Assembly (NCBI GenBank): GCA_025929585.1
Contig: JAICPY010000023.1
Location: forward strand, 1-49,476
DNA: 49,476 bases
DNA from: Steroidobacter sp.
Lineage (GTDB): Bacteria > Pseudomonadota > Gammaproteobacteria > Steroidobacterales > Steroidobacteraceae
Reading direction: 5' to 3'
Positions 1,308-46,917 of this stretch are shown here, piece by piece. The notes below the pieces were generated by a model. It was not told where the DNA came from, searched no databases, and saw nothing but the letters and a program-made list of their open reading frames with translations. Each line of letters starts with the position of its first letter. Position 1 is the first letter of the stretch. The translations under genes were made by a program, and so were the position numbers.

Positions 1308-1433
1308 GATAGAAGCGGTTAGCGGTTGGCGGTTAGCGGTTAGTGGCAGAGGAGTCAGCCTTGAGGCTCGAAGCCTGATGCCGCATCGTGTCTGTTACCA
1401 ACCGCTAACCGCTAACCGCTAACCGCTTCTATC
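1308..1433. repeat. Inverted heptamer repeat, TAACCGC class, between kdsD and kdsC
   Basis: Left arm 1308-1344 and right arm 1397-1433 are reverse complements at 35 of 37 positions, separated by a 52-base loop. Each arm is built of tandem 7-mers (AGCGGTT on the left, TAACCGC on the right). The left arm starts 4 bases after the kdsD stop and the right arm ends 3 bases before the kdsC ATG, so the element brackets the whole spacer. No T-run follows the hairpin, so it is not a standard intrinsic terminator. The kdsC start has no Shine-Dalgarno sequence outside the arm. Confidence 0.9.
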
Positions 1434-1436
1434 CGC

Positions 1437-1961
1437 ATGGACACCCTCATCGAACGCGCCGCAGATATTCGTCTACTCGTGCTGGATGTCGACGGAGTGC
1501 TCACAGACGGTCGTTTGTACTTCACCGCGCGCGGCGAGGAGATGAAGTGTTTCCACGTGCGCGATGGTGCAGGCATCGTGCAATTATTGCGGGGCGGTCT
1601 GCAGGTTGCGGTGATCTCCGGCCGAGATTCTCGAGCAGTCGAGCGGCGCATGGGCGAGCTTGGCGTGACGTGGATTCGACAAGGAGTCGAAGACAAGCTC
1701 ACCGCGTTGCGCGAGCTCTTGGATATCCTAGGACTCACGATTCAGAACGTTGCCTGTATGGGCGATGACTGCGCGGACCTTCCGCTGTTGGAAACTGCTC
1801 GATTGGCGATATCGGTGCCGGACGCTCATCCGAGCGCGAAGTCGCGAGCTCATTTCGTTACGCAAGCACCCGGCGGGCAAGGTGCCGTGCGTGAAGCGTG
1901 CGATTTGATTCTCGAGAGCCAAAGTCGTCTAACGTTGCCACGCAGAGATATCGACAAATGA
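1437..1961 (+). CDS. kdsC: 3-deoxy-D-manno-octulosonate 8-phosphate phosphatase KdsC
   Basis: This HAD-superfamily phosphatase releases free Kdo from Kdo-8-phosphate, the step after Kdo-8-P synthase. The 174 residues begin with the HAD motif I LLVLDVDGVLTDGRLYF (both catalytic Asp present), have motif II around VISGRDS, a Lys in EDKL, and motif III MGDDCADLPLL. The protein is of the short tetrameric KdsC type without a cap domain. Its stop overlaps the lptC start (ATGA), indicating translational coupling. Upstream spacing is unusual: the start codon lies 3 bases from a long inverted repeat and has no visible ribosome binding site. Confidence 0.95.
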   Translation: MDTLIERAADIRLLVLDVDGVLTDGRLYFTARGEEMKCFHVRDGAGIVQLLRGGLQVAVISGRDSRAVERRMGELGVTWIRQGVEDKLTALRELLDILGLTIQNVACMGDDCADLPLLETARLAISVPDAHPSAKSRAHFVTQAPGGQGAVREACDLILESQSRLTLPRRDIDK

Positions 1962-2509
1962 ATTGGCGCTGGATTTCCATCGCAGCGTTGCTCGGCGCAT
2001 TGGCGATCGGTTACGGCGCTTGGAACAGGCGGGACGCAACGCCCGGGTTTCTCTCCGCCGTCCCGGAGAGGCCAAAGTATTACTTGCGCAACGCTGTGAT
2101 CACGGAGACTCAAGAAGACGGCTCGGTAGTATCGCAGCTCGCTGCCGCACGAATCGAAATGCAGCCCGCGACCGAAGACTTGTCCATGCAAAACGTAAAT
2201 CTGCACTATCATCAGTCTTCGCAGCAGGAGTGGCGCATGACGGCGGAGCGCGGCTTCAGGGCCGGCAACTCTCCGGTCATCGAGCTCGCCGGAAATGTGC
2301 TGCTCAGACCCGCCGATGGCGATGCACGAGACGCTCTGAGCGCAGAGGAGTTAGCCATCGACACGCAGCGAGAAATCGCTTACAGCACCAGCTCACCGGT
2401 ACGGATCCGTCATGGCAACCACGCGATACTTGTCGATAGTTTCCGCTTCGACATGAAAGATGAAAAATTGCACATGAAATCTGTCCAGGGCCAATATGAA
2501 CAAGGCTAG
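1958..2509 (+). CDS. lptC: LPS export ABC transporter periplasmic protein LptC
   Basis: The 183-residue protein starts with a single N-terminal membrane anchor (about 4-21, WRWISIAALLGALAIGYGAW) and continues as a periplasmic beta-jellyroll domain. It forms the inner-membrane base of the Lpt bridge, passing LPS from LptB2FG to LptA. The recognisable family features are the YYLRNAVITETQEDGS region and repeated beta strands ending in [20 protein letters not shown]. The start at 1958 is preferred over an in-frame start at 1898 because it gives the canonical membrane anchor and the 4-base overlap with kdsC. It also overlaps lptA by 14 bases. Confidence 0.93.
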   Translation: MNWRWISIAALLGALAIGYGAWNRRDATPGFLSAVPERPKYYLRNAVITETQEDGSVVSQLAAARIEMQPATEDLSMQNVNLHYHQSSQQEWRMTAERGFRAGNSPVIELAGNVLLRPADGDARDALSAEELAIDTQREIAYSTSSPVRIRHGNHAILVDSFRFDMKDEKLHMKSVQGQYEQG

Positions 2510-3197
2510 GACTGGTTTCGTGCTGATTGCCGGAACACTGCTGGCCGCTGCATCGCCGGCGGTCCCTCAAGCACAGGCCAACTTGCAAGATGAAAGCTTC
2601 AGCTACAGCGCAGACATCCTCGACTCGAGTCTGCGCAGTGACACACTGGAGTTGAGCGGCAACGTGCGCGTCGCCCAAGGCGCGATGTCCATCGAAGCCG
2701 AACGAGCGACCGCGGATGACTTCCGTTCGGAAAACAGCCGCTGGCAATTCGAAGATTCGGTACACGTGCGTACTGCGGATGCGGAGTTGCTGTCACAAAT
2801 CGCAAGCGCTGCATTCCAACGTAACCAATTGGTCAAAGCAGAAGTAGAAGGCTCGCCCGCGGAGTTCGAACAAAGACGTGGATCACCGGATCGCTTAGTA
2901 CGAGGCCGCGCCCGTAACATCGAATACGATGTCACCAACAACTTGGTCACGCTTACGGGCGATGTTTGGTTTAGCTATGGCAAAGATGAGTTCCGCGGCG
3001 ACACCGTGATCTATGACATGAAAGACGAACGCGTGCGGGTGAATCCAGGTGGAGATTCTTCCGGTAGGGTCAAAGGCATCATCCGACCGCGCGCACGCAA
3101 TGGCGGAACAAACGTGAGCCCAAGCGCCCAAAACGAGGATGGGTCGAGCCTGCAGCGCGACCGGGATCGCGATGTAGCAAACGAGAGCGGTGCATGA
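2496..3197 (+). CDS. lptA: LPS transport periplasmic protein LptA
   Basis: The 233-residue protein has an N-terminal signal peptide (about 1-28, ending in PQAQA before NLQDE) and an OstA-like beta-jellyroll domain with repeats such as [20 protein letters not shown] and [20 protein letters not shown]. It polymerises between LptC and LptD to carry LPS through the periplasm. A hydrophilic tail of about 40 residues rich in N, R, D and S follows [15 protein letters not shown]. The gene sits in the tightly overlapping lptC-lptA-lptB block; its last 4 bases overlap the lptB ATG. Confidence 0.94.
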
Positions 3198-3919
3198 GTC
3201 GATTGCGCGTGGAGGGACTTGCGAAGCGGTTTCGCTCACGCCAAGTCGTCAAAGACCTTTCAATCGACGTCGCGCAAGGAGAAGTGGTCGGTCTACTTGG
3301 GCCGAACGGCGCAGGTAAGACCACCGCCTTTTATATGATCGTGGGTCTCGTGCCGACCGACGCAGGCCGAATCCTTCTGGATGATTTGGATCTTTCCAAG
3401 CTTCCCGTTCATCGGCGAGCTCGTCTGGGACTGGGCTACTTGCCGCAAGAAGCCTCAGTGTTCCGAAAATTGAGCGTCGAAGACAACATCCTCGCGATAC
3501 TGGAGACGCGCGGGGAGTTGGATGGCAATAAGCGCAAAGAAATTCTGGAATCCCTACTCGAAGAGCTCCACATCGGACACATCCGTCACGGCATAGGCCA
3601 AAGCTTATCGGGCGGTGAACGGCGCCGAGTGGAGATCGCGCGCGCGCTCGCAGCGGAACCGCGCTTCATGCTCCTGGATGAACCTTTCGCCGGAGTGGAC
3701 CCCATCTCGGTTTTGGACATCCAGCGCATCATTCGCCATTTGAGTGCACGCAATATTGGGGTATTGATCACGGACCACAACGTGCGAGAAACGCTAGGAA
3801 TCTGTAGTCGTGCTTACATTGTGAGCGCAGGATCCGTGATTGCGTCCGGGACTGCGGAGGACATCCTTGCAAATCGAGAGGTTCGTGAGGTGTACTTGGG
3901 CCAGGATTTCCGCCTTTAA
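3194..3919 (+). CDS. lptB: LPS export ABC transporter ATPase LptB
   Basis: This is the cytoplasmic ATPase of LptB2FG, powering LPS extraction from the inner membrane. All ABC motifs are intact in 241 residues: Walker [10 protein letters not shown] (36-44), Q-loop Gln85 in [10 protein letters not shown], signature LSGGE (138-142), Walker B FMLLDEP with Glu163 and the switch His195 in [10 protein letters not shown]. The C-terminus YLGQDFRL is typical of LptB. It overlaps lptA by 4 bases. lptF and lptG are not in the window, as is common in this class. Confidence 0.97.
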
Positions 3920-4050
3920 CTGAAGCTGAGAGGGATTCCCTGACTCCCAGCTCGAAAGCTATCGTGGTGCCATGTAATTGAGCCAGCGAGGCTTCGGCGG
4001 CGGCCTAGATCACCAAATGTTGTAAGCGCTTACCTTAATATTTCAGACGA

Positions 4051-5502
4051 ATGCTCAAGCCCGCCCTGCAGCTAAGACTAGGCCAGCAGCTCACGATGAC
4101 GCCGCAGCTGCAACAGGCTATCCGTCTGCTGCAGCTGCCCGTACTGGAGCTCCAAGCTCAGATCCGGGAGGCGCTCGAAACGAACGTCATGCTCGAGTCC
4201 GAGGACGAAGCAGGCGCTCTGGAAACGGGCGACGCATCGCTCGAGCCGCAGTACGAGGCGCCTGCCTCGAATACCGAATCCACCGAAACGCCCGAACGAG
4301 AGCAGGAAGTCGACCTGATCGACGATCCTGACTGGAATGACTCGCAGATGGCCGGGCCGTCGGAAGCGCCCTGGTCCGGTGACGGCGATGACTCCCAAGA
4401 TTTTTCTTCGGCACGTGGCGAGACGCTGCAGGAACATCTGACGTGGCAACTGGAAATGTCGCGGCTCAACGAGCGCGACATGCGAATCGGCGCTGCAATC
4501 GTCGATGCAATCAATGATGACGGATACGTTATCGAACCTCTGGACGAGATCGCGCGGAATCTCCAACCGGAAATCGTGGCGAGTGTGGAAGAGGTCGAAC
4601 GTGTTCTGCGGCACGTGCAACAAATGGATCCCGCGGGCGTCGGTGCGAGGTCCGTCAGCGAATGCATCGAGCTGCAGTTGCGTCAACTGGACCCTGATAC
4701 GCCCGGGCGAGACACCGCGATGCTCATCGCCGCTAATTATTTGGATGAAGTCGCCGATCAGCAGTACTCGCTGCTGCGCCGGCAATTGCGCGTGTCCGAA
4801 GAAGAGATGGAGCACGCGCTGGTTCTAGTGCGCGCTTGCCAGCCTCGACCGGGGTCCAGCGTTCACTCAGTTCCTGCCGAATACATTGTGCCCGATGTTT
4901 TCGTGCGAAGAACCGAGCGCGGCTGGTCGGTCGAAATCAATCCGGCCAGTCTGCCCCGCATTCGAGTCAATCAAAGCTACGCGGGATTGATCGGGCGCTC
5001 AGCGGACCACGCCATGCTGCGCACGCAGCTACAAGAGGCGCGCTGGCTGATCCGAAGCCTGGAAATTCGTAACGACACGCTGCTGAAGGTGGCTCGCTGC
5101 ATCGTGCAGAGACAGTCGGCATTCCTAGAGAATGGCGATGAGTACATGCAACCGATGATCCTGAAGGATGTCGCCGAGGCGGTGCAAATGCACGAGTCGA
5201 CGATTTCGCGCGTGACGACGAACAAGTACATGCACACGCATCGCGGTGTGTTCGAGTTCAGGTACTTCTTCTCGAGCCACGTTGCCGCTAGCGACGGTAC
5301 TGAAATGTCCTCGACGGCGATCCGAGCAAAAATAAAGAAGTTAGTCGCGCAAGAGGAGCCTGACAAGCCCTTGTCGGATAGCCGAATCGCCGACATCCTG
5401 TCTCAAGAGGGCGTGCAAGTTGCCCGGCGCACGGTTGCGAAATACCGTGAAGCCCTGGGTATTCCCCCTTCTAGCGAACGTAAGAGAGTTCCGGTGAGAT
5501 AG
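4051..5502 (+). CDS. rpoN: RNA polymerase sigma-54 factor RpoN
   Basis: This alternative sigma factor recognises -24/-12 promoters and needs enhancer-binding activators. The 483 residues contain the Gln-rich region I (LRLGQQLTMTPQLQQAIRLL near the start), an acidic region II (about 50-120, many D/E), the core-binding region, the helix-turn-helix (KDVAEAVQMHESTISRVT, then KYMHTHRGVFEFRYFFS) and the RpoN box ARRTVAKYRE at about 458-467. It follows lptB after 131 bases, the usual order in this class. The start at 4051 (MLKPALQLRL) is the family norm. A B-class inverted repeat lies directly downstream. Confidence 0.97.
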   Translation: MLKPALQLRLGQQLTMTPQLQQAIRLLQLPVLELQAQIREALETNVMLESEDEAGALETGDASLEPQYEAPASNTESTETPEREQEVDLIDDPDWNDSQMAGPSEAPWSGDGDDSQDFSSARGETLQEHLTWQLEMSRLNERDMRIGAAIVDAINDDGYVIEPLDEIARNLQPEIVASVEEVERVLRHVQQMDPAGVGARSVSECIELQLRQLDPDTPGRDTAMLIAANYLDEVADQQYSLLRRQLRVSEEEMEHALVLVRACQPRPGSSVHSVPAEYIVPDVFVRRTERGWSVEINPASLPRIRVNQSYAGLIGRSADHAMLRTQLQEARWLIRSLEIRNDTLLKVARCIVQRQSAFLENGDEYMQPMILKDVAEAVQMHESTISRVTTNKYMHTHRGVFEFRYFFSSHVAASDGTEMSSTAIRAKIKKLVAQEEPDKPLSDSRIADILSQEGVQVARRTVAKYREALGIPPSSERKRVPVR

Positions 5503-5520
5503 GTCCGTATGAACGAAGGC

Positions 5521-5591
5521 GATAGGGGATAGCGGATAGGCGATGGCAGAGCATATGACTCCGGCTGTTCTCCTATCCGCTATCCCCTATC
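5521..5591. repeat. Inverted heptamer repeat, GATAGGG class, between rpoN and hpf
   Basis: A perfect 20-base core on the left (5521-5540) is the reverse complement of 5572-5591, with a 31-base loop. Each arm consists of tandem GATAGGG/GATAGCG 7-mers. Looser similarity extends the arms to about 5514 and 5604. The element fills the spacer between the rpoN stop (5502) and the hpf ribosome binding site (5611). There is no T-tract after the right arm. Confidence 0.9.
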
Positions 5592-5610
5592 CGCCATCCC
5601 CTTCACTCCT

Positions 5611-5618
5611 AAAGGAGG
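5611..5618 (+). promoter_or_regulatory. Strong Shine-Dalgarno sequence of hpf
   Basis: AAAGGAGG lies 4 bases before the ATG at 5623. It stands out because most genes in this window have weak or no Shine-Dalgarno sequences, and it sits just outside the repeat arm, so hpf keeps its own translation signal. Confidence 0.75.
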
Positions 5619-5622
5619 CATC

Positions 5623-5946
5623 ATGCAACTGAACGTCACGGGTCACCATGTCGATGTCACTTCCTCGCTCAAGGGATACGTCGAAAAAAAGCTGGATCGC
5701 ATCGTTAGACATTCCGACCACATCATAGACGTTCACTGCATTCTCACTGTCGAAAAGCTCCGCCACAAAGCCGAGGCCACCGTACTGCTCAACGGCAGCA
5801 CCATCTATGCGGACGCGGTCGAACCCGACATGTATGCCGCCATCGACGCCCTGGCCGATAAACTCGACCGGCGCGTCAAGAAACACAAAGAGAAGCTTTC
5901 GGATCACCACGCCGCAGAAGCGCTGAGGGCAGCCAGACCGTCCTGA
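5623..5946 (+). CDS. hpf: Ribosome hibernation promoting factor, short form
   Basis: This 107-residue protein of the HPF/YfiA family (beta-alpha-beta-beta-beta-alpha fold) binds the 30S decoding region in stationary phase and promotes 100S ribosome dimers together with RMF. It begins MQLNVTGHHVDVTSSLKGYV and contains VEKLRHKAEATVLLNGSTIY, DMYAAIDALADKLDRRVKKH and a short basic/acidic tail. The length matches the short HPF of Gammaproteobacteria rather than the long form. It lies directly downstream of rpoN in the conserved order. Confidence 0.95.
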   Translation: MQLNVTGHHVDVTSSLKGYVEKKLDRIVRHSDHIIDVHCILTVEKLRHKAEATVLLNGSTIYADAVEPDMYAAIDALADKLDRRVKKHKEKLSDHHAAEALRAARPS

Positions 5947-5948
5947 GT

Positions 5949-6156
5949 GTGACTCGTGACTAGTGATTCGTGACTAGTCAAGAGCAGGAACGCTCCGGAC
6001 TCAATGCCCCAATCTGGGTCCTGTCTATGTGATGGACAGGGCCCGCATGCGTCTTATGTTGCCCCTGTGTCATGCGAGGGCTGTTTTGGCCTAAGATCAC
6101 GTCGCGTGACATCGCTTGCCCGCTTCACTCGTCACGAGTCACTAGTCACGGATCAC
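5949..6156. repeat. Inverted heptamer repeat, GTGACTA class, between hpf and rapZ
   Basis: Left arm 5949-5978 reads as GTGACTC-GTGACTA-GTGATTC-GTGACTA; right arm 6127-6156 is its reverse complement with a few mismatches. The loop is about 148 bases and contains a separate hairpin at 6016-6044. The left arm starts 2 bases after the hpf stop and the right arm ends 6 bases before the rapZ ATG. The element occupies the place where ptsN is usually found. Confidence 0.85.
6016..6044. terminator. Hairpin downstream of hpf, terminator-like without U tract
   Basis: GGGTCCTGTC (6016-6025) pairs with GACAGGGCCC (6035-6044), ten base pairs including one G-T, around a 9-base loop. No run of T follows, so a role in intrinsic termination is uncertain; it could stabilise the hpf mRNA end or pause transcription. 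Confidence 0.45.
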
Positions 6157-6162
6157 TTTCTA

Positions 6163-7053
6163 ATGCGCCTCGTCATCGTCAGCGGTCTGTCAGGTTCCGG
6201 CAAAAGTGTGGCACTGCACATGCTGGAGGATCTGGACTATTACTGCATCGACAACATTCCGGCAGGATTGTTGCCTATGTTTATCTCGCACACCGTGCGT
6301 TCGGGAGATATTGCCTATGGCTCGACCGCCGTAGGCGTGGACGCACGCAACAGTCCGCTGGACGTCGCGTCTGTGCCGAAGCTAGTCGATGAGTTGAAAC
6401 GAAGCGGTGTGAATTGCGAAGTTCTATTCCTGCGCGCCGAGGAAGACGCGCTGCTCAAGCGCTATAGCGAGACCCGCCGACGACATCCCTTGAGCCGCGA
6501 TGGGCTTGGGCTTGCCGATGCGATCAGGCAGGAGCACGTACTCCTGCAACCTATCGCGGATGCAGCCGATCTGGTCATCGACACCACGCGCAGCAGCGTT
6601 CATGAGTTGCGTGAGCTGATCCGCCAACGCGTGGGGGCGCGAGTGGAAGGTCGCATGTCGATCCTGTTCGAGTCCTTCGCTTATCGGCATGGAGTACCCG
6701 GCGATGCCGATTTCGTGTTCGATGTGCGTAGCCTCCCCAATCCTTACTGGGAGCCGGGCCTATCTCGACTGACCGGCCGCGAATCGCAAGTCATCGAGTA
6801 CCTGGAACGTTTCCCGATCGTGAACACCATGTTCGAGGATATCGTGGGATTCTTGGATCGCTGGATTCCCGAGCTCCTCAAGACCAACCGCAGCTATCTC
6901 ACCATCGCGATCGGTTGCACCGGCGGACAGCACCGCTCGGTGTACTTGGTCGAGCGCCTCGCCAAACACTTCGCAGCGAAATTCCCGCATGTCCACGCGA
7001 AGCACCAGTATCAAAAGCGGATGAGTGATGGGAAGGAAGGAGATAGGGGATAG
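6163..7053 (+). CDS. rapZ: RNase adapter protein RapZ
   Basis: RapZ binds GlcN6P and, in enterobacteria, hands sRNA GlmZ to RNase E, controlling amino-sugar synthesis. The 296 residues start MRLVIVSGLSGSGKS (Walker A GLSGSGKS at 8-15), followed by YYCIDNIPAGLLP, a FESFAYRHGVPGDADFVFDV block and the C-terminal GCTGGQHRSVYLVERLA with the HAKHQYQKR basic end. An in-frame start at 6004 would add 53 residues translated from spacer DNA and is rejected. The last residues (about GKEGDRG) and the TAG stop at 7051-7053 come from the following inverted repeat. ptsN and npr, common neighbours, are absent here. Confidence 0.95.
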   Translation: MRLVIVSGLSGSGKSVALHMLEDLDYYCIDNIPAGLLPMFISHTVRSGDIAYGSTAVGVDARNSPLDVASVPKLVDELKRSGVNCEVLFLRAEEDALLKRYSETRRRHPLSRDGLGLADAIRQEHVLLQPIADAADLVIDTTRSSVHELRELIRQRVGARVEGRMSILFESFAYRHGVPGDADFVFDVRSLPNPYWEPGLSRLTGRESQVIEYLERFPIVNTMFEDIVGFLDRWIPELLKTNRSYLTIAIGCTGGQHRSVYLVERLAKHFAAKFPHVHAKHQYQKRMSDGKEGDRG

Positions 7054-7190
7054 CGGATAGGGGACTGGTGAGAAAACCTCCGCCCCAAGCTCGTCCTCGA
7101 CAATTTAAGAGACAGAGCTTCAAAACACGCCAACCGCTTCCTCCGACTATCCGCTATCCGCTATCCGCTATCCCCTATCGCCTTCCTTCC
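7031..7190. repeat. Inverted heptamer repeat, GATAGGG class, between rapZ and mgtE
   Basis: Left arm 7031-7060 and right arm 7161-7190 are reverse complements at 29 of 30 positions, with a 100-base loop. Further tandem CTATCCG units extend the right arm inward to about 7147. The left arm overlaps the end of rapZ and provides its stop codon. The arm ends carry an extra GGAAGGAAGG/CCTTCCTTCC segment not found in the other copies. Confidence 0.9.
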
Positions 7191-7228
7191 TCCGCTACAC
7201 TGCGCGCCAATTTGTGGGCGATGGACGG

Positions 7229-8581
7229 ATGAAGACCGAAGCTCCAGAAAAAACGACTCGACTCGCTGCTCTGCGCGGGGCGCTAGAGCAGGGAACCATG
7301 CGCCACGGCCAGCGCATGATCAATTCGCTTCACCCTGCGGAAATTGCCTCCCTCATCGAGTCCTTACCGCCGGCCAAGCGCGAGATCGTTTGGGAATTCG
7401 TCGATCCGGAGCTCGAAGGCGATGTACTGATCGAGCTCAACGAGGAGGTCCGCTCCGAGCTCATCAGCGGTATGGATGCCGAGGAGCTGATCGCAGCAAC
7501 CGAAGGGATGGAGGTCGATGATCTTGCGGACTTGATCGGCGATTTGCCCGAGACGCTGAACGAGCGCGTGCTGCATTCCATGGACGCGCAGGACCGCGAG
7601 CGCCTGTCTGCGGTTCTCGCCTTTGAAGGAGATAGCGCCGGCGGTTTGATGAACTTGGATGCCGTGACGGTCCGACCGGACGTCACGATCGAAGTCGTCC
7701 TGCGCTACCTGCGGATGCGAGGTGAATTGCCCGACCGTACCGATCGGCTGTTCGTCGTCAATCGACATGACCAGTACCTTGGGGGCCTGGACATCACACG
7801 TCTGCTGACTGAAGACCCGGAAGCAACGGTCGGCGAGGTAATGGACTCCACCGTCGAGCGAATCTCACCTGAGACGCCTGCTCGGGAGGTTGCCAAGCTT
7901 TTCGAAGATCACGATTTAGTCTCTGCGGCCGTAGTAGGCCAAGACGGGCGGCTCCTGGGACGCATCACCATCGATGACGTGGTCGACGTGATCCGCGAAG
8001 AAGCCGAGCATTCCGTGCTGAGCATGGCCGGTCTCGACGAAGACGAAGACATGTTCGCGAGCGTCCGCACCAGCGCGCGCAGGCGTTCGGTTTGGCTGGC
8101 CGCCAATCTAGCAACGGCATTCTTAGCCGCTAATGTCGTGGGCTTGTTCGAAGCAACGATCGAGAAAGTCGTCGCGCTGGCCGTCCTGATGCCGATTGTG
8201 GCTAGCATGGGTGGCATCGCCGGCAGCCAAACTCTGGTCTTGATCATTCGTGGCTTGGCAGTGGGCCACGTCGAACATGCGAACGCTCGCTGGTTGCTGA
8301 CGCGCGAGATCGCCGTCGGCATGCTCAACGGCGTCGTGCTTTCATCGCTTGTCGGGCTAGCGGCGGGTTTGTGGTTTCACGCCTGGACGATTGGCTTGAT
8401 CATCTTTGCTGCATTGATGATCAATCTGTTAGCCGCTGCTTTGGCAGGTGTAGGCGTCCCGCTGATTCTGAAGCGGTTCGGCATCGATCCTGCTATCGCG
8501 GGCGGCGTGATACTCACCACAGTGACGGATGTCGTGGGATTCGCCTCGCTACTAGGCCTCGGCACGCTTTTCCTTACGTGA
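7229..8581 (+). CDS. mgtE: Magnesium transporter/channel MgtE
   Basis: This inner-membrane Mg2+ channel is gated by its cytoplasmic domains. The 450 residues show the MgtE N domain (superhelix of acidic segments, about 20-130), a CBS pair (about 140-260) and five predicted membrane helices (about 285-450). The pore signature MPIVASMGGIAGSQTLVL and the filter-region Asp in TTVTDVVGF are present. ATG 7229 is preferred over GTG 7214, since it gives the usual family length; neither has a strong Shine-Dalgarno sequence. No Mg2+ riboswitch is recognisable upstream. Its end overlaps the convergent patatin gene by 30 bases. Confidence 0.93.
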   Translation: MKTEAPEKTTRLAALRGALEQGTMRHGQRMINSLHPAEIASLIESLPPAKREIVWEFVDPELEGDVLIELNEEVRSELISGMDAEELIAATEGMEVDDLADLIGDLPETLNERVLHSMDAQDRERLSAVLAFEGDSAGGLMNLDAVTVRPDVTIEVVLRYLRMRGELPDRTDRLFVVNRHDQYLGGLDITRLLTEDPEATVGEVMDSTVERISPETPAREVAKLFEDHDLVSAAVVGQDGRLLGRITIDDVVDVIREEAEHSVLSMAGLDEDEDMFASVRTSARRRSVWLAANLATAFLAANVVGLFEATIEKVVALAVLMPIVASMGGIAGSQTLVLIIRGLAVGHVEHANARWLLTREIAVGMLNGVVLSSLVGLAAGLWFHAWTIGLIIFAALMINLLAAALAGVGVPLILKRFGIDPAIAGGVILTTVTDVVGFASLLGLGTLFLT

Positions 8582-14583: not shown

Positions 14584-14597
14584 AGGATGAAGTGTTT

Positions 14598-14620
14598 GGC
14601 GGTTAGCGGTTAGCGGTTAG
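14598..14620 (-). repeat. Single TAACCGC-class arm upstream of pyk
   Basis: About three tandem 7-mers (TAACCGC on the minus, sense strand) end 14 bases before the pyk start codon. No complementary arm was found in the 163-base pyk-pgk spacer, so this is a one-armed copy or a remnant. Confidence 0.75.
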
Positions 14621-15928: not shown

Positions 15929-15955
15929 GGGAAGCTCCAGCAAGAAGGAAGCAGT

Positions 15956-15974
15956 TGGCGGTTAGCGGTTAGTC
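15956..15974 (-). repeat. Single TAACCGC-class arm upstream of pgk
   Basis: Two to three tandem 7-mers read TAACCGC on the strand coding for pgk, ending about 27 bases before its ATG. The inner edge (plus strand TAGTCAGAGGCGCTG) resembles the inner edge of other copies, notably 43208-43224. No opposite arm of the same class is seen in this spacer. Confidence 0.7.
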
Positions 15975-16015
15975 AGAGGCGCTGCCGCGCTTTCGTCCTT
16001 GAACCAACGCAGGTC

Positions 16016-16073
16016 GTGACTCGTGAGCCGCGGGTAACGCAAGAACTCTTACTACCCGCGAGTCACGAATCAC
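16016..16073. repeat. Inverted repeat, GTGACTC class, between gap and pgk
   Basis: Left arm 16016-16036 and right arm 16053-16073 match at 18 of 21 positions; the inner 8 bases (CGCGGGTA/TACCCGCG) are perfect, loop 16 bases. It uses the same GTGACTC/GTGATTC units as the hpf-rapZ element. On the minus strand it begins 13 bases after the gap stop codon, so it could also act as a 3'-end hairpin for gap. Confidence 0.75.
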
Positions 16074-21492: not shown

Positions 21493-21614
21493 GAGAGAAG
21501 GGGATAGGGGATAGCGGATAGGGGATGGTCAGAACGAACACGATCGCCTCACCGCTAACGAGCTGCCCTCCACTCTGACTATCCCCTATCGCCCATCCCC
21601 CATCGCCTTCTCTC
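21493..21614. repeat. Inverted heptamer repeat, GATAGGG class, between TraB/GumN and rubredoxin genes
   Basis: Arms 21493-21533 and 21574-21614 match as reverse complements at about 35 of 41 positions, several mismatches being compatible with G-U in RNA; loop 40 bases. The left arm begins 3 bases after one stop codon and the right arm ends 4 bases before the stop of the converging rubredoxin gene. This copy thus lies between two 3' ends and could serve both as a bidirectional 3' hairpin. Confidence 0.88.
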
Positions 21615-38093: not shown

Positions 38094-38170
38094 GGATTCG
38101 CGTTGCTCTCGGCAGGGTGCGGCGTGCAGCTCTGATCACCTCCCCTGCTTGCGCGGGGGACGGCTAGCAG

Positions 38171-38198: not shown

Positions 38199-38215
38199 AG
38201 CCCGCCCAACTCCCG

Positions 38216-39184
38216 CTATTTCTTCGCTCTCGCTTTGGTCTTCTTCTTCGTAGTCCGCTGCTTCGCAGACTTCCGCGGCGCTCTCTTCGCGCCTTTTTTG
38301 CCCGCCTTTTTCGCCAGCACCTTTGCAGGCTTCTTCACGACTTTCTTCGATGCCTTCTTCTTGCTTCGCGCCTGCTTAGCTGCCTTGTGAGGCTTGCTCC
38401 CTGCTTTCTTCTGGCTCCGCTTCTTTTTCGCGCTCTGCTTCTTGGTCGGTGCTTTTACCGACTTCGCCGCCACGCGCGGCTTATTGGCTTTGGATGGCTT
38501 TCTCGGAGCCTTCCGGACAGAGACCTTGTCCGCGGGAACAAGCTTTGCGAGCGCGGCTGACTCCATGCGCTCGAAGACTTCATCGAGTTCTCCCTCGCCC
38601 GCGATTATCCGCAGCAGACCGAGCTTCGAATAGTGCTCCACCAACGGCCGAGTTTGTCGCTCGTACACTTCCAGGCGTTTGGCGATGACTTCTTCGTTGT
38701 CGTCCGGTCGTTGCTGAAGCTCCGTCCCGTCTTTCGCACAGCCTGTGGCGCCCGGCGCCATCGTATTCACGTTGTAAACCGTCCCGCACTTTGGACAGAC
38801 ACGGCGGCCTGCAAGCCGCTTGATCAAGGTTTCGCGTTGCACCTCGAGCAGTAGCACCGCTTCGATCGGTTGACCCAGGGCATCGAGCATCTCCGTCAGG
38901 GCATTTGCTTGCTCGATATTGCGGGGAAACCCGTCAAGTACGAACCCGTTCACTGCGTCGGGCCGACTCAGGCGGTCCCGGATCAACCCTAAGACGATGT
39001 CATCGGAGACGAGTTGGCCTGAGTCCATGACAGCTTTGGCCTTCAAGCCAAGCTCGGTGCCCCTGGCCACGGCGTCGCGCAGAAGATCGCCCGAGGACAC
39101 CTGTGGCACGTTGTACTTGGCCTGCAGTTTTTGAGCCTGAGTGCCTTTGCCCGATCCGGGCGCCCCCAGCAAGACAATACGCAT
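38216..39184 (-). CDS. adk: Adenylate kinase with long polybasic C-terminal tail
   Basis: Residues 1 to about 220 are a complete long-lid adenylate kinase: P-loop GAPGSGKGTQ (7-16), SSGDLLRDAVARGTELG, DGFPRNIEQANAL, lid with C-x2-C-x15-C-x2-D (CPKCGTVYN to GCAKDG, a zinc-lid type) and QRPDDNEEVIAKRLEVY. Residues 223-322 form a tail with 37 Lys and 9 Arg and no Asp or Glu, rich in AKK/KKA/PRK units like histone H1 tails. Normal Adk ends near 214-220. The tail is in the same frame with no stop or shift and ends KKKTKARAKK. It may bind nucleic acid, polyphosphate or membranes (inference). Start at 39184 with AGAGGA upstream. Confidence 0.93.
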   Translation of the reverse strand: MRIVLLGAPGSGKGTQAQKLQAKYNVPQVSSGDLLRDAVARGTELGLKAKAVMDSGQLVSDDIVLGLIRDRLSRPDAVNGFVLDGFPRNIEQANALTEMLDALGQPIEAVLLLEVQRETLIKRLAGRRVCPKCGTVYNVNTMAPGATGCAKDGTELQQRPDDNEEVIAKRLEVYERQTRPLVEHYSKLGLLRIIAGEGELDEVFERMESAALAKLVPADKVSVRKAPRKPSKANKPRVAAKSVKAPTKKQSAKKKRSQKKAGSKPHKAAKQARSKKKASKKVVKKPAKVLAKKAGKKGAKRAPRKSAKQRTTKKKTKARAKK

Positions 39185-39603
39185 CGTCGATAGTCCTCTC
39201 GCGAAAAGCTCCGGCAATGTTGGAGCAGGCCAGAAATCGGTGGCTCGCCGGTTTTGAGCGAGCGTTTGGTCGGTGCCTCGGCGCAATCCCCGGGGCTTCG
39301 TTTTGGGATCGCTACCCTACAGAAAAGCGCGCCGGCTGGGTACTGGTGTGGTCTATTTTGGAAGCGGATAGGGATAGGGGATAGTCAGGACCGGCGCGCA
39401 TTCACAAGTGCGTCTCCTTTCCGTCCGTTCCATCTCAGACCGCGCGCAGACGCCTTTCTCAATCATTCGGGTTCGTGGGTGTGACTCAGAACGACTCGCT
39501 CTGACTATCCCCTATCCCCTATCCCCTATCCGCTTCTCTCATACCACCCGTCCTGCGCTATCCTTCGCGACCACTTTCAACCCGCACGAGGATTCAAGCT
39601 GTC
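39185..39603. other. 419-base divergent spacer between adk and pfp
   Basis: Must hold the adk and pfp promoters, but I see no clear -10/-35 pair. The notable content is the inverted heptamer element 39361-39536; two small hairpins (GCTCC/GGAGC and GCTCG/CGAGC) lie between 39200 and 39270. Confidence 0.5.
39361..39536. repeat. Inverted heptamer repeat, GATAGGG class, upstream of pfp
   Basis: Left arm 39361-39387 and right arm 39501-39536 are reverse complements except that the right arm carries about one extra 7-to-8-base unit, a sign of unit gain or loss. The outer ends (GAAGCGGATAGG / CCTATCCGCTTC) and inner ends (GATAGTCAG / CTGACTATC) match exactly; the inner end also recurs in the 21493-21614 copy. 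Confidence 0.88.
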
Positions 39604-40875: not shown

Positions 40876-40922
40876 TCCCGCCCCTTTCAACGGCGGAACT
40901 CCTCGAGGAATTTTTTGCTTAT

Positions 40923-40962
40923 AGCCATTCGACGAACGTCGCTAACGTTCGTCGAAATGGCT
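40923..40962. promoter_or_regulatory. Strong hairpin in the pfp-hppA spacer
   Basis: AGCCATTCGACGAACG (40923-40938) pairs with 40946-40962 over 16 base pairs with one bulged A and a 7-base loop. A T6 run (40911-40916) lies before it, not after it, so it is not a plus-strand terminator; the run follows only a very short CCTCGAGG palindrome. It sits in the 232-base leader of hppA and could terminate, pause or protect a partial pfp transcript. Confidence 0.6.
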
Positions 40963-41107
40963 CGGTATCCTTCCACCTGGGTTGTGGGGGGATAACGACA
41001 CAGCTTCCTTAGGTACGATCGAGGCGCGCTTGAATGTGCGCCCGGTTTTCACCGCCGCATATCAACACGACTGCATACAATGCTGCCCGTTTCGGGGAGG
41101 GAAATTG

Positions 41108-43168
41108 ATGTCCACTGATGTCGCGCTCTGGCTAGCGATCGCCTGCGGCGTACTCGCCGTGCTGTACGGTGTGTTCTCAGTTAGCTGGATCAACAAGCAA
41201 CCGGCAGGCAACGCGCGCATGCAGGAAATAGCGGCGGCGATCCAAGCCGGCGCGAAGGCTTATCTCAATCGACAGTACACAACCATTGGCATCGTCGGTG
41301 CCGCGCTGTTCATCGTGCTGGGCTTCGCGCTCGACTGGTGGACTGCCGGTGGCTTCGCGATTGGTGCTTTGCTCTCCGGTGCGGCGGGCTTCATCGGCAT
41401 GAACGTGTCGGTGCGAGCAAATGTAAGAACTGCGCAAGCAGCGAGCGTCGGACTGAATCCTGCGCTGGCAGTCGCATTTCGCGGCGGTGCGATCACCGGC
41501 ATGTTGGTGGTCGGCCTGGGACTGTTGGGCGTCGCAGGTTACTTCGCACTGATTCGCGGTCACGTCGGCGATGAGCACGCACTGCACTCGCTGGTCGGGC
41601 TCGCGTTCGGCGGATCACTCATCTCGATCTTCGCGCGCCTGGGCGGCGGCATCTTCACCAAGGGCGCAGATGTCGGCGCCGACTTGGTCGGCAAAGTCGA
41701 AGCAGGCATTCCCGAAGACGATCCGCGGAATCCAGCGGTGATCGCCGATAACGTGGGTGACAACGTCGGGGACTGCGCTGGCATGGCCGCCGACTTGTTC
41801 GAAACCTATGCGGTCACTGTAGTGGCAACGATGGTTCTCGGCGGCTTGCTGTTCCAAACCGCCGATGGCGCACTCGAGATCAACTATGTGCTGTATCCGC
41901 TGGTGTTGGGTGCGGTATCGATTGTCGCTTCGATCATCGGCACGTTCTTCGTGAAGGCCTATGAAGGCGGCAAGATCATGAGCGCTCTGTATCGCGGCAC
42001 AGCCGTGTCGGGCTTGATCGCCTTGATCGCGTTCTGGTTCGTAACCAAGCCGCTGATGGGCGATCAATCCGCAGCATTGTTCGGTTGTGCCGCAATCGGG
42101 CTTACGCTCACCGCGGCATTGATTTGGATCACCGAGTACTACACCGCGACAGAGTTCGCACCGGTGCGCCGTGTTGCCGAAGCATCCCAGACGGGACACG
42201 CGACTAACGTTATCTCCGGTCTCGCAGTTTCGATGCGCTCAACTGCTTGGCCCGTGCTAGCCGTGTGCGCCGCTATCTGGGGCTCGTATGAGCTTGCAGA
42301 GCTCTACGGCATCGCCATTGCAGCAACGGCAATGTTGTCGATGATCGGAATGATCGTCGCACTCGATGCATACGGTCCAATCACCGACAACGGCGGCGGC
42401 ATCGCACAGATGGCCGGGTTGCCTGAGAACGTGCGCACCATTACCGATGCACTCGATGCGGTCGGCAATACCACGAAGGCAGTCACGAAGGGGTACGCGA
42501 TCGGCTCCGCTGGGCTTGCTGCACTCGTGCTGTTCGCAGACTACACGCACAACCTGGAGATCCATCTCGCGTCGACCGGACGTGAGATGGTTCAGTTCTC
42601 GCTGTCCGATCCCGCCGTCATCATCGGCTTGTTCATCGGCGGGCTCATTCCGTACTTGTTCGGCGCAATGGCGATGGAAGCCGTGGGACGCGCCGCCAGT
42701 TCTGTCGTCGTAGAAGTGCGCCGTCAATTCCGTGAAATCAAAGGCATCATGGAGGGCACGGCAAAGCCCGACTATTCGCGCGCCGTAGATTTGTTGACCC
42801 GGGCCGCGATCAAAGAAATGGTCGTCCCCTCGTTGCTACCCATTCTCGTGCCCGTGGTCGTCGCCTTCGGCATGAATTATCTGATGGGCGAAGGAGCAGG
42901 CATTCGCGCGCTGGGCGGCCTGTTGATCGGCACGATCGTGACCGGCTTGTTCGTCGCGATCTCGATGTGCACCGGCGGCGGCGCTTGGGACAACGCAAAG
43001 AAGTACGTCGAGGAAGGCAACTTCGGCGGCAAAGGGTCCGAAGCGCATAAGGCTGCAGTCACCGGCGATACGGTTGGCGATCCCTACAAAGATACAGCCG
43101 GTCCAGCAATCAACCCGCTGATCAAGATCATCAACATTGTTGCTCTCTTGCTCGTGCCGCTTTTGTGA
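41108..43168 (+). CDS. hppA: K+-independent membrane H+-translocating pyrophosphatase
   Basis: This integral membrane pump hydrolyses PPi and moves H+. The 686 residues have about 16 membrane helices; catalytic loops [20 protein letters not shown] (187-205 region), [20 protein letters not shown] and [12 protein letters not shown] are intact. Lys457 in [10 protein letters not shown] marks the K+-independent subfamily, where K+-dependent pumps have Ala. The ATG at 41108 has GGGGAGGG 6 bases upstream, one of the best ribosome binding sites in the window; an earlier in-frame start at 40982 is rejected. It follows pfp on the same strand, separated by a 232-base leader with a strong hairpin. Confidence 0.96.
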
Positions 43169-43182
43169 GCGGCTCGCCAAGC

Positions 43183-43407
43183 GACGGGGTGACGACGTGA
43201 CGGAGTGACGAAGTCAGAGGCGCTGCGCTAAGTGGTGCGTGGTACCCGCTACTCGACGGCAAAAATCAAACGGCGCAGTCTCGGCTGCGCCGGTTTCGTT
43301 TGTGCTCACCCAGATTGCGAACGATCAAGGTTGATCGTGAGCGCCGCGGGAGACGACGACCGCCGAGCTTCTTGCTTCGTCACCTCGTCACGCCGTCACC
43401 TCGTCAC
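43183..43407. repeat. Inverted octamer-type repeat, GTGACGA class, around the hppA terminator
   Basis: Left arm 43183-43213 (GTGACGAC-GTGACGGA-GTGACGAA units) and an equal-length right arm ending about 43407 match as reverse complements with about five mismatches over 31 bases. The arms enclose about 160 bases including the intrinsic terminator at 43271-43302. The inner edge AGTCAGAGGCGCTGC repeats that of the 15956 copy, linking this class with the TAACCGC class. Located between two converging 3' ends. Confidence 0.8.
43271..43302 (+). terminator. Rho-independent terminator of hppA
   Basis: CGGCGCAG (43271-43278) pairs with CTGCGCCG (43285-43292) around a 6-base loop, followed by GTTTCGTTTG. 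Plus-strand orientation, 100 bases after the hppA stop. Confidence 0.75.
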
Positions 43408-43429
43408 TGCGCAGCTCCTGCTGCGCCCG

Positions 43430-45751
43430 CTACGCACTCCGCGCCACAATGCGCGCGAGTGGTTGCGGTCTACCCAAGTGATAACCTTGGACGAAATCGA
43501 CACCCATCATTTTCGCGGTTTCCAATGACTCGCCATCTTCGACTTGCTCGGCGATGACTTGGAATTTCAAGGTGCGCGCCAGCTTGATCATGGCCGCAAC
43601 CATTGCTTGATTGACCGAGTCCGCGGCCAAGTTGCGAATGAATGAGCCGTCGATCTTCAAATAATCGAGCGATAGATTCTTCAGATTGCCAAAGGACGAC
43701 AATCCGCGGCCGAAATCATCCAACGCGAACTGACAGCCCATGCCGTGCAAAACGCCGATAAATCGCTGCGCATGTTCGATGTTGGTGATCACGGAGTTCT
43801 CGGTCACTTCGAAGCACAATTGATTCGGCGAGACCCCAGTGCGATCCAGAACATCGACGACGAACTCGAGGAACTGCGGATCGCCGAGTGTTTGGCCTGA
43901 GAGGTTGATAGCAAGGCTCCGCTGAGCGGGCAACCTGATTCCACCTCGGCCCAATGCGGTTAGCGAGGTCTGTACGACCCATCGATCCACGTCAGCCATG
44001 AGGCGATAGCGCTCGGCGGCGCGCAGAAACTCTACCGGCGAGATTCCCTCCGGCACGGTCTCATCCTGTAGGCGTAAGAGAACCTCGAGCGCGGGGCCAT
44101 TCGCGGCGGCGGTCGCGGACGAGGTCGCGATGATCGGCTGAGCCATCAGCTCGAAGCGATTCTCTTTTAGCGCCGACTGCAAGCGCTGCAGCCATTGGAT
44201 CTCGCCACGGTGCCGCGCCACGGCTTCGTCGCGGGCCGAATACACGTGCACATGGTTGCCGCGCTTCTTGGCAACGTAACAAGCCGAGTCTGCCGCGCTC
44301 ATCAGCTCTTCAGGCGCGCCGCTTTCCCGCGAAAGCTCCACCAAGCCGACGCTAACGCCGATATTGAAGATCTTGTCCTTCCATACGAATCGGTACTCGT
44401 TGACCTTTCTGACTACGTCATCCGCGATCTGACGCGCCTTCTCCAGAGGACATCCCACGAGCAACAAGCCGAATTCATCACCGCCCAAGCGACCTACCGT
44501 GTCGGAATCACGCACGGCTTCTTTGATGAGGGCTGCCACTTCGCGCAACATGTTGTCGCCTGCCAGGTGGCCGCAGCTATCGTTGACCGCCTTGAAGCGA
44601 TCCAGATCCAAATAACACAGCACGTGCCGCGCCGTGTTCGCGTGCGCAATCTCGAGAGACTCCTCGAGCCGTCGCTCGAATTCGCGGCGATTGACGAGGC
44701 CCGTCAATGCGTCATGACTTGCCTGATACGACATCTGACGCGTCAGCCCCCGCAGCTCGCTGACATCGCGGACCACGATCACTGTGCCGATCAGATCTCC
44801 TTTCTGTCCTTTCAACGGCGTAACCGTCAGCTCAACAGAACGCTCGTGATTTCCCGCGCGCGAGATCATCAATCCACGACGACCGACCGTGACGCGCGAT
44901 TGAGTCGCCAAGCAATGTCGTACCGGATCTCCCAACGAGCGTCGATCGTGCTCATCGACCAGGCTGATGATATCCGTGATCGTCTGCCCCAACGCTTCGA
45001 GAGCGGTCACGCCGGTCAACTGCTCGGCGGCTTGATTCACATAGTCGATACGCCCGCTTACGTCGGTCGTGATGATGCCTTCACCCAAGGAGTCGAGCGT
45101 TTCCCATGCAGTAGGACGTCCGCGCGCTGCCGCCGCTGTAGTAACCGCCGCCGGAGGGCCCATTTCGACGAGCGTGAGCAACAGCGCCGGGCCACCCTGA
45201 TAGTCGATCTTGACTGCCGACAGCTCGATGCGGGCTCCTTGTTCGGCGTGCGGATGCAGCTCCAATTCCAAGCGTTCGAGACTGGGCTCACCAAGTAACG
45301 AACGATGCAAATGATCGCGTACCAGCTCGGTGTAATCCGGGTGGACCAGATCGGACATGGCCCTGCCGAACAGAGATTGCGCGGTGGGCTGACCGACGAG
45401 CGATGCAAAGTGTTCGTTCGCGAACACGATGGTCTCACGATGAACAGCAACCGCTTCGTGTAGGCCGCCCAGCAATCCGACCAACGAGCGCTCACGCTCG
45501 CTGATCATCAAATCCTTCATCGCGATGTGTTCGAGGAGAAGATTTGCTTTCTCCGCAAACGGTGCGGCAAAGCCGGGCGCGCGGACACGTTCGGTGTAGC
45601 GTCCCGATCGGATGATGCTTTCCAATTGGCCCGCGGCGCGTGCAAGCGCGCCCGTTCGACGCGCGCGCCAGACGAATACGCCAAGCGCGGCGAACAACAG
45701 GAATGTCACGATCGCTAGTGCGATGGTCAAAGAGCCTAAATTGGCACTCAC
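43430..45751 (-). CDS. Membrane-anchored PAS-GGDEF-EAL c-di-GMP protein
   Basis: The 773 residues comprise one N-terminal membrane helix (about 8-28), two PAS domains (about 95-195 and 215-330), GGDEF (about 340-505) and EAL (about 525-773). The cyclase motif GGDEF (423-427) is intact, as is an inhibitory-site RxxD (RDSD, 414-417). The phosphodiesterase domain has EVLLR (556-560) in place of EALLR but keeps NLSG, EVTEN, DDFG (678-681), KIDGSFI and AEQVED, so it is probably active. The net activity cannot be told. It converges on hppA; an inverted repeat separates them. Confidence 0.93.
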   Translation of the reverse strand: MSANLGSLTIALAIVTFLLFAALGVFVWRARRTGALARAAGQLESIIRSGRYTERVRAPGFAAPFAEKANLLLEHIAMKDLMISERERSLVGLLGGLHEAVAVHRETIVFANEHFASLVGQPTAQSLFGRAMSDLVHPDYTELVRDHLHRSLLGEPSLERLELELHPHAEQGARIELSAVKIDYQGGPALLLTLVEMGPPAAVTTAAAARGRPTAWETLDSLGEGIITTDVSGRIDYVNQAAEQLTGVTALEALGQTITDIISLVDEHDRRSLGDPVRHCLATQSRVTVGRRGLMISRAGNHERSVELTVTPLKGQKGDLIGTVIVVRDVSELRGLTRQMSYQASHDALTGLVNRREFERRLEESLEIAHANTARHVLCYLDLDRFKAVNDSCGHLAGDNMLREVAALIKEAVRDSDTVGRLGGDEFGLLLVGCPLEKARQIADDVVRKVNEYRFVWKDKIFNIGVSVGLVELSRESGAPEELMSAADSACYVAKKRGNHVHVYSARDEAVARHRGEIQWLQRLQSALKENRFELMAQPIIATSSATAAANGPALEVLLRLQDETVPEGISPVEFLRAAERYRLMADVDRWVVQTSLTALGRGGIRLPAQRSLAINLSGQTLGDPQFLEFVVDVLDRTGVSPNQLCFEVTENSVITNIEHAQRFIGVLHGMGCQFALDDFGRGLSSFGNLKNLSLDYLKIDGSFIRNLAADSVNQAMVAAMIKLARTLKFQVIAEQVEDGESLETAKMMGVDFVQGYHLGRPQPLARIVARSA

Positions 45752-46201
45752 ATCAGCCGCCGATTTTCCTTCTTCCCCTCATCGAGTGCCGCGGGTCGCA
45801 GCATTCTTGTCTTGCGGAGTCCTTGCTGTCGCCACGCCGATTTCTATCGTCGATTTGCGCCGGCGCCCCTACAAGATCTGATTGTCGTGGTCACAGCATA
45901 TAGAACTAAGGAGTATCTGCTGCCCGGATTGACCATAATGGTAATTGGCGTGTGAACTGTACAGGGACTGAAAGTTGTTTCGGGGGATCCCGCATGCGAG
46001 GAATCAGAACGTCAACGGTATGAATCCGAACGTAACGACGCGGGCTTGCGCGTGCTTGTCCAACCTTTTCAAAGTTCGTACCCTGTGCGCCCTCCGCTGC
46101 TGGCATTGCACATGTTGGAAAGTGTCAATGAATCCGACGTTTTCCGCTCGCGAAGCCGGCGCCAAAATCCTCCTTGATCGATGGCTGACTCTAGGGAATG
46201 C
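45752..46201. other. 450-base spacer between GGDEF-EAL gene and pcm, nothing recognised
   Basis: Divergent upstream regions of both flanking genes. No protein of recognisable family, no repeat of the heptamer type and no clear hairpin with T tract. TTGACC at about 45932 resembles a -35 but has no good partner -10. A short AAGGAG-preceded frame near 45912-45960 is too small to support. Confidence 0.5.
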
Positions 46202-46852
46202 ATGAATACCCACGCCGTACGCGAACAGATGATCGAACAGCAGGTGCGAGCCGGCGATGTGCTGGATCTGCGCGTATTGGACGCCATGAGAGACGTCCGA
46301 CGAGAGCTGTTTGCGCCCGAAGCGTACCGCAAGGTTGCCTATGCCGACGCGCCCATCCCGATCGCCCATGGTCAATGGATGCTGCCGCCGCTCATTCACG
46401 GGCGCATCCTTCAAGCGCTGACCCCAAAAGCGGACGAGGTCGCCCTGCTGGTGGGCACGGGAACCGGCTATCTGGCCGCCTGTCTTGGACGTCTGGCTGC
46501 GCGCGTGCGCGCGCTGGAAATTTTCCCGGACCTAGCCGACCTGGCGCGTGCGAACCTACTTTCGGTGGCAGTCAACAACGTCGGCGTGGAAGTTGCCGAC
46601 GGTATGCAATTGGATGAGCACGGCATGTACGGCGCCATCGCGGTCACCGGCTCTTTACCCCTTTATGATGAGCGCTTTCAACGAGCATTGCGGGTCGGAG
46701 GGCGGTTGTTCGTGGTCGTCGGCCAGTCCCCGGTCATGGAGGCGTGGAAGGTCACGCGCGTCGGCGAACGCGAATGGCAGCGCGAGAGCCTGTTCGAAAC
46801 CGTGATCGATCCGCTCATCAACGCCGCACACCCGCCATCGTTTGTCTTCTAG
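46202..46852 (+). CDS. Protein-L-isoaspartate O-methyltransferase family protein
   Basis: The 216-residue SAM methyltransferase has the Pcm fold: REQMIEQQVRAGDVLDLRVL at the N-terminus, ELFAPEAYRKVAYADAPIPI, MLPPLIHGRILQAL, the SAM motif VALLVGTGTGYLAACLGRL and LARANLLSVAVNNVGVEVAD, ending GGRLFVVVGQSP. It is close to the Pcm-like proteins encoded next to tolC in many Gammaproteobacteria; the repair function on isoaspartyl residues is likely but unproven, as the Ser/Thr motif differs from classical Pcm. ATG 46202 is preferred over 46181. The rhodanese and tolC genes follow in the same direction. Confidence 0.85.
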   Translation: MNTHAVREQMIEQQVRAGDVLDLRVLDAMRDVRRELFAPEAYRKVAYADAPIPIAHGQWMLPPLIHGRILQALTPKADEVALLVGTGTGYLAACLGRLAARVRALEIFPDLADLARANLLSVAVNNVGVEVADGMQLDEHGMYGAIAVTGSLPLYDERFQRALRVGGRLFVVVGQSPVMEAWKVTRVGEREWQRESLFETVIDPLINAAHPPSFVF

Positions 46853-46880
46853 CCTGTGGGCTGTAGCCGCGGCTTCCGAT

Positions 46881-46917
46881 CTAACCGCTAACCGCTAACC
46901 GCTAACCGCTAACCGCT
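46881..46917 (+). repeat. One-armed TAACCGC tandem repeat upstream of the rhodanese gene
   Basis: Five perfect TAACCGC units (46882-46916), the longest perfect run of this class here, ending 8 bases before the ATG at 46925. No reverse-complement arm is found in the 72-base spacer after the pcm stop. The gene has no Shine-Dalgarno sequence downstream of the array. Confidence 0.9.

Follow-up and report, generated by a model that had tools for sequence, protein, structure and literature searches.

The window analysed here, a stretch of 49,476 nucleotides from Steroidobacter sp. (contig C283 of a draft assembly of 5.13 Mb in 297 contigs), carries in its spacers a set of elements in which short tandem units form two inverted arms around a loop. 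In an RpoN comparison, the closest named relatives were Steroidobacter, Peristeroidobacter, and Povalibacter. An earlier note on this DNA had listed seven two-armed sites, and an independent scan of the window recovered all of them; they are given here without strand. Between kpsF and kdsC lies a GTTAGCG (TAACCGC) element with arms at about 1308-1350 and 1391-1433, a loop of 40 nt, and a scan extent of 1293-1448. The kdsC start codon, at window position 1437, stands 3 nt past this arm region and has no visible Shine-Dalgarno (SD) motif. GATAGSS units form the scanned elements between rpoN and hpf (5515-5598; arms 5515-5543 and 5569-5598) and between rapZ and mgtE (7031-7190; arms 7031-7064 and 7147-7190), the left arm of the latter overlapping the called end of rapZ, and the hpf/rapZ spacer holds a GTGACTA/GTGACTC element (5949-6156; arms 5949-5982 and 6123-6156) whose loop of 140 nt contains a small hairpin of its own. 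GATAGSS elements also lie at 21493-21614, with TCAGA...TCTGA inner boxes, and at 39360-39534 (scan extent to 39531), with TCAG boxes and a loop of 112 nt, while an element of the 8-mer GTGACGNN stands between converging genes at 43172-43415 (arrays 43183-43214 and 43377-43407). A GTGACTC/GCGGGTA pair at 16013-16073, which had been proposed as a shorter example, falls under the scan threshold, yet its arm score of 15 beats all of 300 shuffles, none of which exceeds 11. The three one-armed arrays claimed earlier are present as well, all of GTTAGCG units: on the plus strand at 14596-14620 and at 15950-15972, the second followed by the inner box TCAGAGGCGCTG, and on the minus strand at 46881-46917, where 5.3 units end 7 nt upstream of a start codon.

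Shuffled sequence, which the earlier note had named as a comparison that could undo its claim, gave next to no such arms: 60 Markov-2 windows together yielded 2 pairs, no window more than 1, and 100 shuffles of the ten element spacers yielded none, compared with the 7 pairs observed there. Our sample of the same genome (800,255 bp in 41 stretches, most from TAACCGC-bearing contigs) contains 140 inverted pairs, and three Markov-2 controls gave 0, 0, and 0. In a 430-kb sample of this genome, arrays with periods of 7, 8, and 9 numbered 77, 10, and 12, and one Markov-1 control gave 1, 0, and 1; period 7 is specific. The class of paired tandem-unit arms is real, abundant, and multi-family. The four unit classes first described are too few, as we count about ten families: among the 140 pairs, GATAGSS accounts for 31, GTTAGCG and GTGATGN for 17 each, GTGACKN for 15, GTGACGN and GTTGACR for 10 each, GTCYGYA for 9, GTAGGGG for 8, GCAGCGGC for 6, and GGCYRYR and GTGTAGN for 2 each, with 12 others and 1 without assignment.

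The arms of these families follow a common plan. Arrays of 7-, 8-, and 9-mers have median lengths of 27, 24, and 27.5 bp (3.9, 3.0, and 3.1 units), so that an array spans about 24 to 28 bp irrespective of unit size; the loops of the pairs in our sample have a median of 45 nt. Inner edges that had been noticed to recur between sites correspond to a box near YMAGA (TCAGA, CCAGA, CAAGA, TAAGA), which 120 of 274 arms carry at the inner end and 26 of 274 at the outer, the reversed box occurring at 51 of 274, and GAAG stands at the outer end of 114 of 274 arms, chiefly in GATAGSS and GTTAGCG. Pairing is strongly directional. An inverted partner within 400 nt accompanies 151 of the 193 strong 7- or 8-mer arrays, and a direct one 9 of them. 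In 60 cases, two neighboring arrays are at most 250 nt apart; 54 of these pairs converge and are complementary, 4 converge but differ, 2 run in the same direction, and none diverge. Arrays that lack a partner and lie near a gene edge are also directed into the spacer (22 of 23; 13 arrays within predicted genes were excluded), and the polarity of the G-rich strand runs nearly always from gene edge to spacer. Whole elements fold at a median of -64.6 kcal/mol (median z of -7.7), whereas single arms self-fold weakly, with a median of -4.8 kcal/mol, 0.75 below shuffles. We also observed mixed pairs whose arms come from different unit families (L059 6456-6536 and L080 8958-9120), as well as long perfect heptamer arrays, unpaired or nested (L052 6917-6995, L050 7313-7378, and G000:C111:48301-48377), with about 9 to 11 units of GGGTGAC/CCCGTCA or GGGAATC.

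Placement relative to genes, which relied on a simple in-house gene caller that rewards SD motifs, is equally regular. The 140 pairs comprise 132 intergenic and 1 intragenic case and 7 on stretch edges, so that 132 of 133 placeable pairs are intergenic. Elements favor convergent spacers and avoid divergent ones: their spacers are tandem in 86 cases, convergent in 38, and divergent in 8, against 258, 72, and 96 among all spacers of at least 80 bp. They fill a median of 86% of the spacer, and the layout proposed earlier, with arms close to stop codons and the next gene edge, holds, the median distance of outer arm edges being 3 nt to stop codons (n = 162) and 14 nt to starts (n = 102). Starts close to arms seem to be without an SD motif as a rule: one precedes 5 of the 41 starts within 20 nt of an arm versus 253 of 670 called genes overall, a rough contrast given a caller that rewards such motifs. 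At the site we call locus 4 (L143, L192-L195), the right arm overlaps the gene end and encodes KRLAVGG-stop; armless relatives, read by eye, encode KRLAVGG-stop there too, by other codons.

Our results lead us to favor, at slightly better than even confidence, the interpretation that these elements are miniature, noncoding mobile hairpins resembling repetitive extragenic palindromic (REP) doublets that form hairpins (REPINs) or miniature inverted-repeat transposable elements (MITEs), with later turnover of their units. Each hairpin would be a single unit, with two inverted ends of about 30 to 40 bp and an unconserved loop of about 5 to 180 bp; each end would consist of an array of about 24 to 28 bp, made of 3 to 4 tandem 7- to 9-mers, together with the YMAGA-like inner box in the Steroidobacteraceae. 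A putative trans-acting mobilizer would act on the single-stranded DNA hairpin or on the paired ends, and insertions would survive chiefly beside stop and start codons. Once in place, the arrays would gain, lose, and homogenize units by replication slippage while pairing is kept. As RNA, the elements are predicted to be very stable 3'-end hairpins, which may be tolerable or useful by stop codons. Loss of a hairpin nuclease was considered as a cause and rejected: SbcD is missing family-wide, including in an element-poor relative (S. agaridevorans, below), and its absence may be permissive but is not discriminating. Of 23 Steroidobacteraceae genomes, 22 gave no match to SbcD (TIGR00619) and the other, G010, a weak subthreshold one; 13 of 14 controls match.

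Comparison among relatives shows movement of whole units in a few cases, and the remaining elements would have arisen likewise. The genomes concerned are S. agaridevorans (G001), P. soli (G003), Povalibacter uvarum (G008), S. gossypii (G011), and Peristeroidobacter agariperforans (G012), the names being assigned from coordinates. GCGGTT-type elements are frequent in P. agariperforans, where 23 were read; for 8 of these, an orthologous spacer from one or more relatives was available for comparison. Its sister S. agaridevorans, at 92.8% identity across 106 kb, has no GCGGTT element at 7 of 7 comparable spacers. The clearest gain lies on P. agariperforans contig C15 (L204 7670-7834), where an element of exactly 123 nt (41 codons) sits inside a gene start, within a signal peptide, and leaves the frame open throughout; in S. 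agaridevorans, P. soli, and S. gossypii, the gene frame VTRKRQPLTASLLTIS is unbroken and the element is absent. The P. agariperforans element at L203 13622-13716 is likewise absent from these three genomes. At the kpsF-kdsC junction, 10 of 11 relatives have 0 to 5 nt and G010 has 23 nt, compared with 133 nt in our window. Moreover, three unlinked P. agariperforans elements have similar loops, scoring 22, 18, and 16 where the 99th percentile of shuffles is 10. These three elements, the 123-nt insertion, and the kpsF-kdsC junction bear out the earlier suggestion that something is inserting and spreading the arms. The hpf-rapZ loop showed no likeness above shuffles to the spacers of 13 relatives, and we rejected the idea that it is native spacer, as it does not align with theirs.

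Several observations weigh against mobile hairpins. The TAACCGC-based choice of contigs biases the element density of our sample upward. The loops are mostly unrelated, with 6 marginal matches among 69 loops; 16 of 112 loops match elsewhere in our sample, mainly through array sequence, and 20 of 23 P. agariperforans loops have no clear partner. No target-site duplication was seen at the junctions read by eye, the most being ATG at kpsF-kdsC and none at the 123-nt insertion, and no mobilizer was found in a transposase search limited to Y1. Losses also occur, since P. soli carries the same GCGGTT family at 2 of 7 P. agariperforans sites although S. agaridevorans is the closer relative; at one shared site the loops are clearly homologous (score of 56 versus at most 15 in 500 shuffles), and at one further site P. 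soli has a lone arm of another unit. The native target of the 123-nt insertion resembles an arm end, so that homology-guided copying is possible. Finally, the P. agariperforans mutL loop has its homologue in the native promoter region of S. agaridevorans and P. soli, which are armless there by the shuffle test (loop scores against relatives of 20, 20, and 16; shuffled maxima of 11 to 12), and the arms there therefore seem to have formed around native DNA.

These last two observations, together with some of the arrays being long and perfect, speak for growth in place, in which unit-like native sequence expanded by slippage, the second arm arose by hairpin template switching or selection, and nothing moved as a unit. 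The codons that flank the 123-nt insertion, CGTCAACCACTGACTGCT, equal the right-arm end CGCCAACCGCTAACCGCT save at synonymous positions, and at locus 4 the armless relatives reach the KRLAVGG end through other codons (by eye). Nevertheless, we consider growth in place unlikely: it does not fit the new loop DNA at the kpsF-kdsC junction and in the 123-nt insertion, nor the same-family arms at many unlinked sites with three shared loops. Template copying also predicts a clear excess of likeness between the two arms of an element, and own arms are hardly closer than same-family arms. Scores for own versus same-family arms are 27.4 versus 24.7 in GATAGSS and 25.1 versus 25.6 in GTTAGCG, even with pairs preselected for their own complementarity, and we rejected copying of one arm from the other. 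The proposal that arms are being converted is not borne out, the two arms of an element being barely more alike than same-family arms elsewhere. A palindrome that continues in the outer flank past the family end is seen in few elements.

The companion proposal, that the unit is allowed to change, is borne out at some orthologous spacers (rapZ-mgtE, mutL, and L125). At rapZ-mgtE, 4 of 12 genomes have arms of differing units, and the other eight are armless by scan and eye. The arms are of GATAGSS in our window; L006/G002 has CACGGAG and CACGGGG, one nested in the other, P. uvarum has CACGGGG, and L009 has GGGATTC. The nested element (L006 4242-4506, equal to L157 4254-4442) consists of a CACGGGGAA hairpin within the loop of a CACGGAGAA hairpin. 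At the mutL spacer, the S. gossypii and P. agariperforans loops are homologous (score of 20 versus a shuffled maximum of 11), and S. gossypii has arms of another sequence that match weakly but significantly (12 versus at most 11 in 300 shuffles). Its arms at the L125 site score 16, compared with at most 14 in shuffles. Changed arms read by eye at locus 3 of G004 have weak support, 4 of 300 shuffles being equally good, and those at locus 3 of S. gossypii and at rpoN-hpf of L001 and L007 found no support in the shuffle test. This test splits the spacer at its midpoint, and off-centre pairs can escape it; the L008 pair, detected by the pair scan, did so.

A different reading takes the arms for hairpins that serve the cell at 3' ends or as insulators and are maintained by selection, for instance as Rho barriers, stabilizers of mRNA 3' ends, or substitutes for terminators, their likeness reflecting a binding factor. 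The median distance of 3 nt to stop codons, the enrichment in convergent and depletion in divergent spacers, and the very stable folds would all be expected, and at two P. agariperforans sites the relatives hold other small hairpins in the same spacer. We judge this reading quite unlikely, as the insertions into a signal peptide and into an operon junction of 0 to 5 nt look parasitic, the sister S. agaridevorans does without elements at 7 of 7 sites, and of the 162 elements that follow a gene, only 11 have a U-run past the 3' arm. Signals like those of intrinsic terminators are rare in either case: among converging ends, 4 of 63 with an element and 9 of 95 lacking one have such a signal, and among tandem ends 0 of 80 and 8 of 202, respectively. 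Identity with intrinsic terminators was rejected, as a GC-rich hairpin followed by a U-run is not the rule (11 of 162). Known Rfam RNAs were also rejected, the window giving 0 matches at gathering score. U-run terminators seem rare in this genome, judging from the element-free ends in this simple scan (9 of 95 converging and 8 of 202 tandem).

That the elements belong to a system of REP-associated tyrosine transposases (RAYTs) and REPINs with unusual REPs is very improbable: inverted doublets, singletons, variable loops, and REP-like placement agree with what is described in PMC3733652 and PMC3116915, and our genome has one Y1 transposase, but the arms do not fold alone, the 4.3-kb contig that bears the RAYT has no period-7 array, and no Y1 match was found in P. 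agariperforans, P. soli, S. agaridevorans, or S. gossypii, genomes that have or once had such elements. The G-quadruplex reading put forward for the GGGAATC repeats of Xanthomonas and Nostoc is hardly credible here, given that four GGG runs occur in 6 of 280 arms and families such as GTTGACR and GTGATGN lack them, even if four-unit preference, G-rich polarity, and placement agree with PMC4692102.

Mobile hairpins with later unit turnover remain the interpretation we favor, and similar pairs are found in other genomes. G390, from another gammaproteobacterial family, has 28 pairs in 164,576 bp of regions picked around GGGATTC matches; its families (CACGAAGGA, GCCAAGAAC, CACGGAATC, and CGGGATT) are of other 7- to 9-mers and have no clear YMAGA box. 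In regions of G423, 9 pairs were counted over 80,000 bp; several are GC-rich repeats in coding sequence, and about three are of GGGAATC. The architecture is therefore wider than the Steroidobacteraceae, while the YMAGA box may not be. Several G390 contigs (C14, C32, C39, C49, C123) start with GGGATTC arrays, and assemblies may break at long arrays. GGGAWTC in three copies occurs in 4 of 369 genomes of the class. A wide distribution of CACGGAGNN was rejected, its strict three-copy pattern being found in 0 of 398 genomes of the phylum. We speculate, as a possibility that we ourselves find doubtful, that there is a widespread superfamily whose mobilizer recognizes shape, in the form of a stem of some 30 bp with G-rich polarity directed inward and a short inner box, and leaves the unit word freely replaceable, the Xanthomonas heptamers, the Steroidobacteraceae elements, and the G390 families being branches. 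If paired arrays are the ends of mobile hairpins, the question shifts from the role of the repeat to its mover, and conserved size and polarity with replaceable sequence would be an unusual mode of DNA-end recognition.

Tandem heptanucleotides in many copies are familiar from the short tandemly repeated repetitive (STRR) sequences of cyanobacteria. A search of the open literature with five unit strings gave no match, a result that holds for those strings alone. MITEs have terminal inverted repeats, as do our elements; a conserved internal sequence was not found here, the loops being mostly unrelated. The earlier note had set aside REPs, clustered regularly interspaced short palindromic repeats (CRISPR), and ordinary terminators, which stands as far as identity goes; the placement, with inverted doublets that lie near stop codons and avoid divergent spacers, is nonetheless both REP-like and like that of the Xanthomonas heptamers. 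REPINs share with our elements two inverted ends, a variable spacer, singlets and doublets, extragenic placement, a predicted hairpin, and proposed movement as a unit (PMC3116915), but REPs are palindromic and tied to RAYTs, whereas the arms here are tandem heptamers that do not self-fold and are not tracked by RAYTs. The GTAG/CGTC REPs and terminal inverted repeat families (PMC3733652) also occur as several families per genome, with dimers, hybrid dimers, and tandem or convergent placement. Their GTAG/CGTC tag and palindrome are not seen here, where the tag is YMAGA-like and at the inner end; GTAG/CGTC is not among the inner 5-mers (CAGAA, TCAGA, AAGAA, CAGAG), as judged from k-mer lists and not from a systematic GTAG search. 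The TAACTGA repeats of the Beggiatoaceae are likewise intergenic tandem heptamers of patchy distribution, but are described as direct, mostly upstream of starts, with one inverted case (PMC4679880).

Heptamer repeats are over-represented in bacterial spacers, and their role is still to be elucidated (PMC4692102). As described by Rehm et al. (2015, PMC4692102), the GGGAATC and GGGGA(C/T)T repeats of Xanthomonas and Nostoc are, like our elements, heptamer arrays that favor four units, lie mostly between genes and near stop codons, and are rare in divergent spacers. Convergent two-array cases of GGGAATC number 70 in Xcc and 75 in Xac, and 83% of the repeats keep their position between two species (PMC4692102). 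In contrast to the one family per genome and the G-quadruplex reading given in that account, we find about ten families of 7- to 9-mers with a constant array length, together with an inner box, arms that are mostly not capable of forming G-quadruplexes, and gains of whole elements. A GGGNATC unit with G-quadruplex capacity is not characteristic of the elements here, four GGG runs occurring in 6 of 280 arms; the long GGGAATC array at G000:C111 lies outside the set. Among the cases published in these sources, our elements thus most closely resemble the paired GGGAATC heptamers of Xanthomonas in layout (PMC4692102) and REPINs in behavior.

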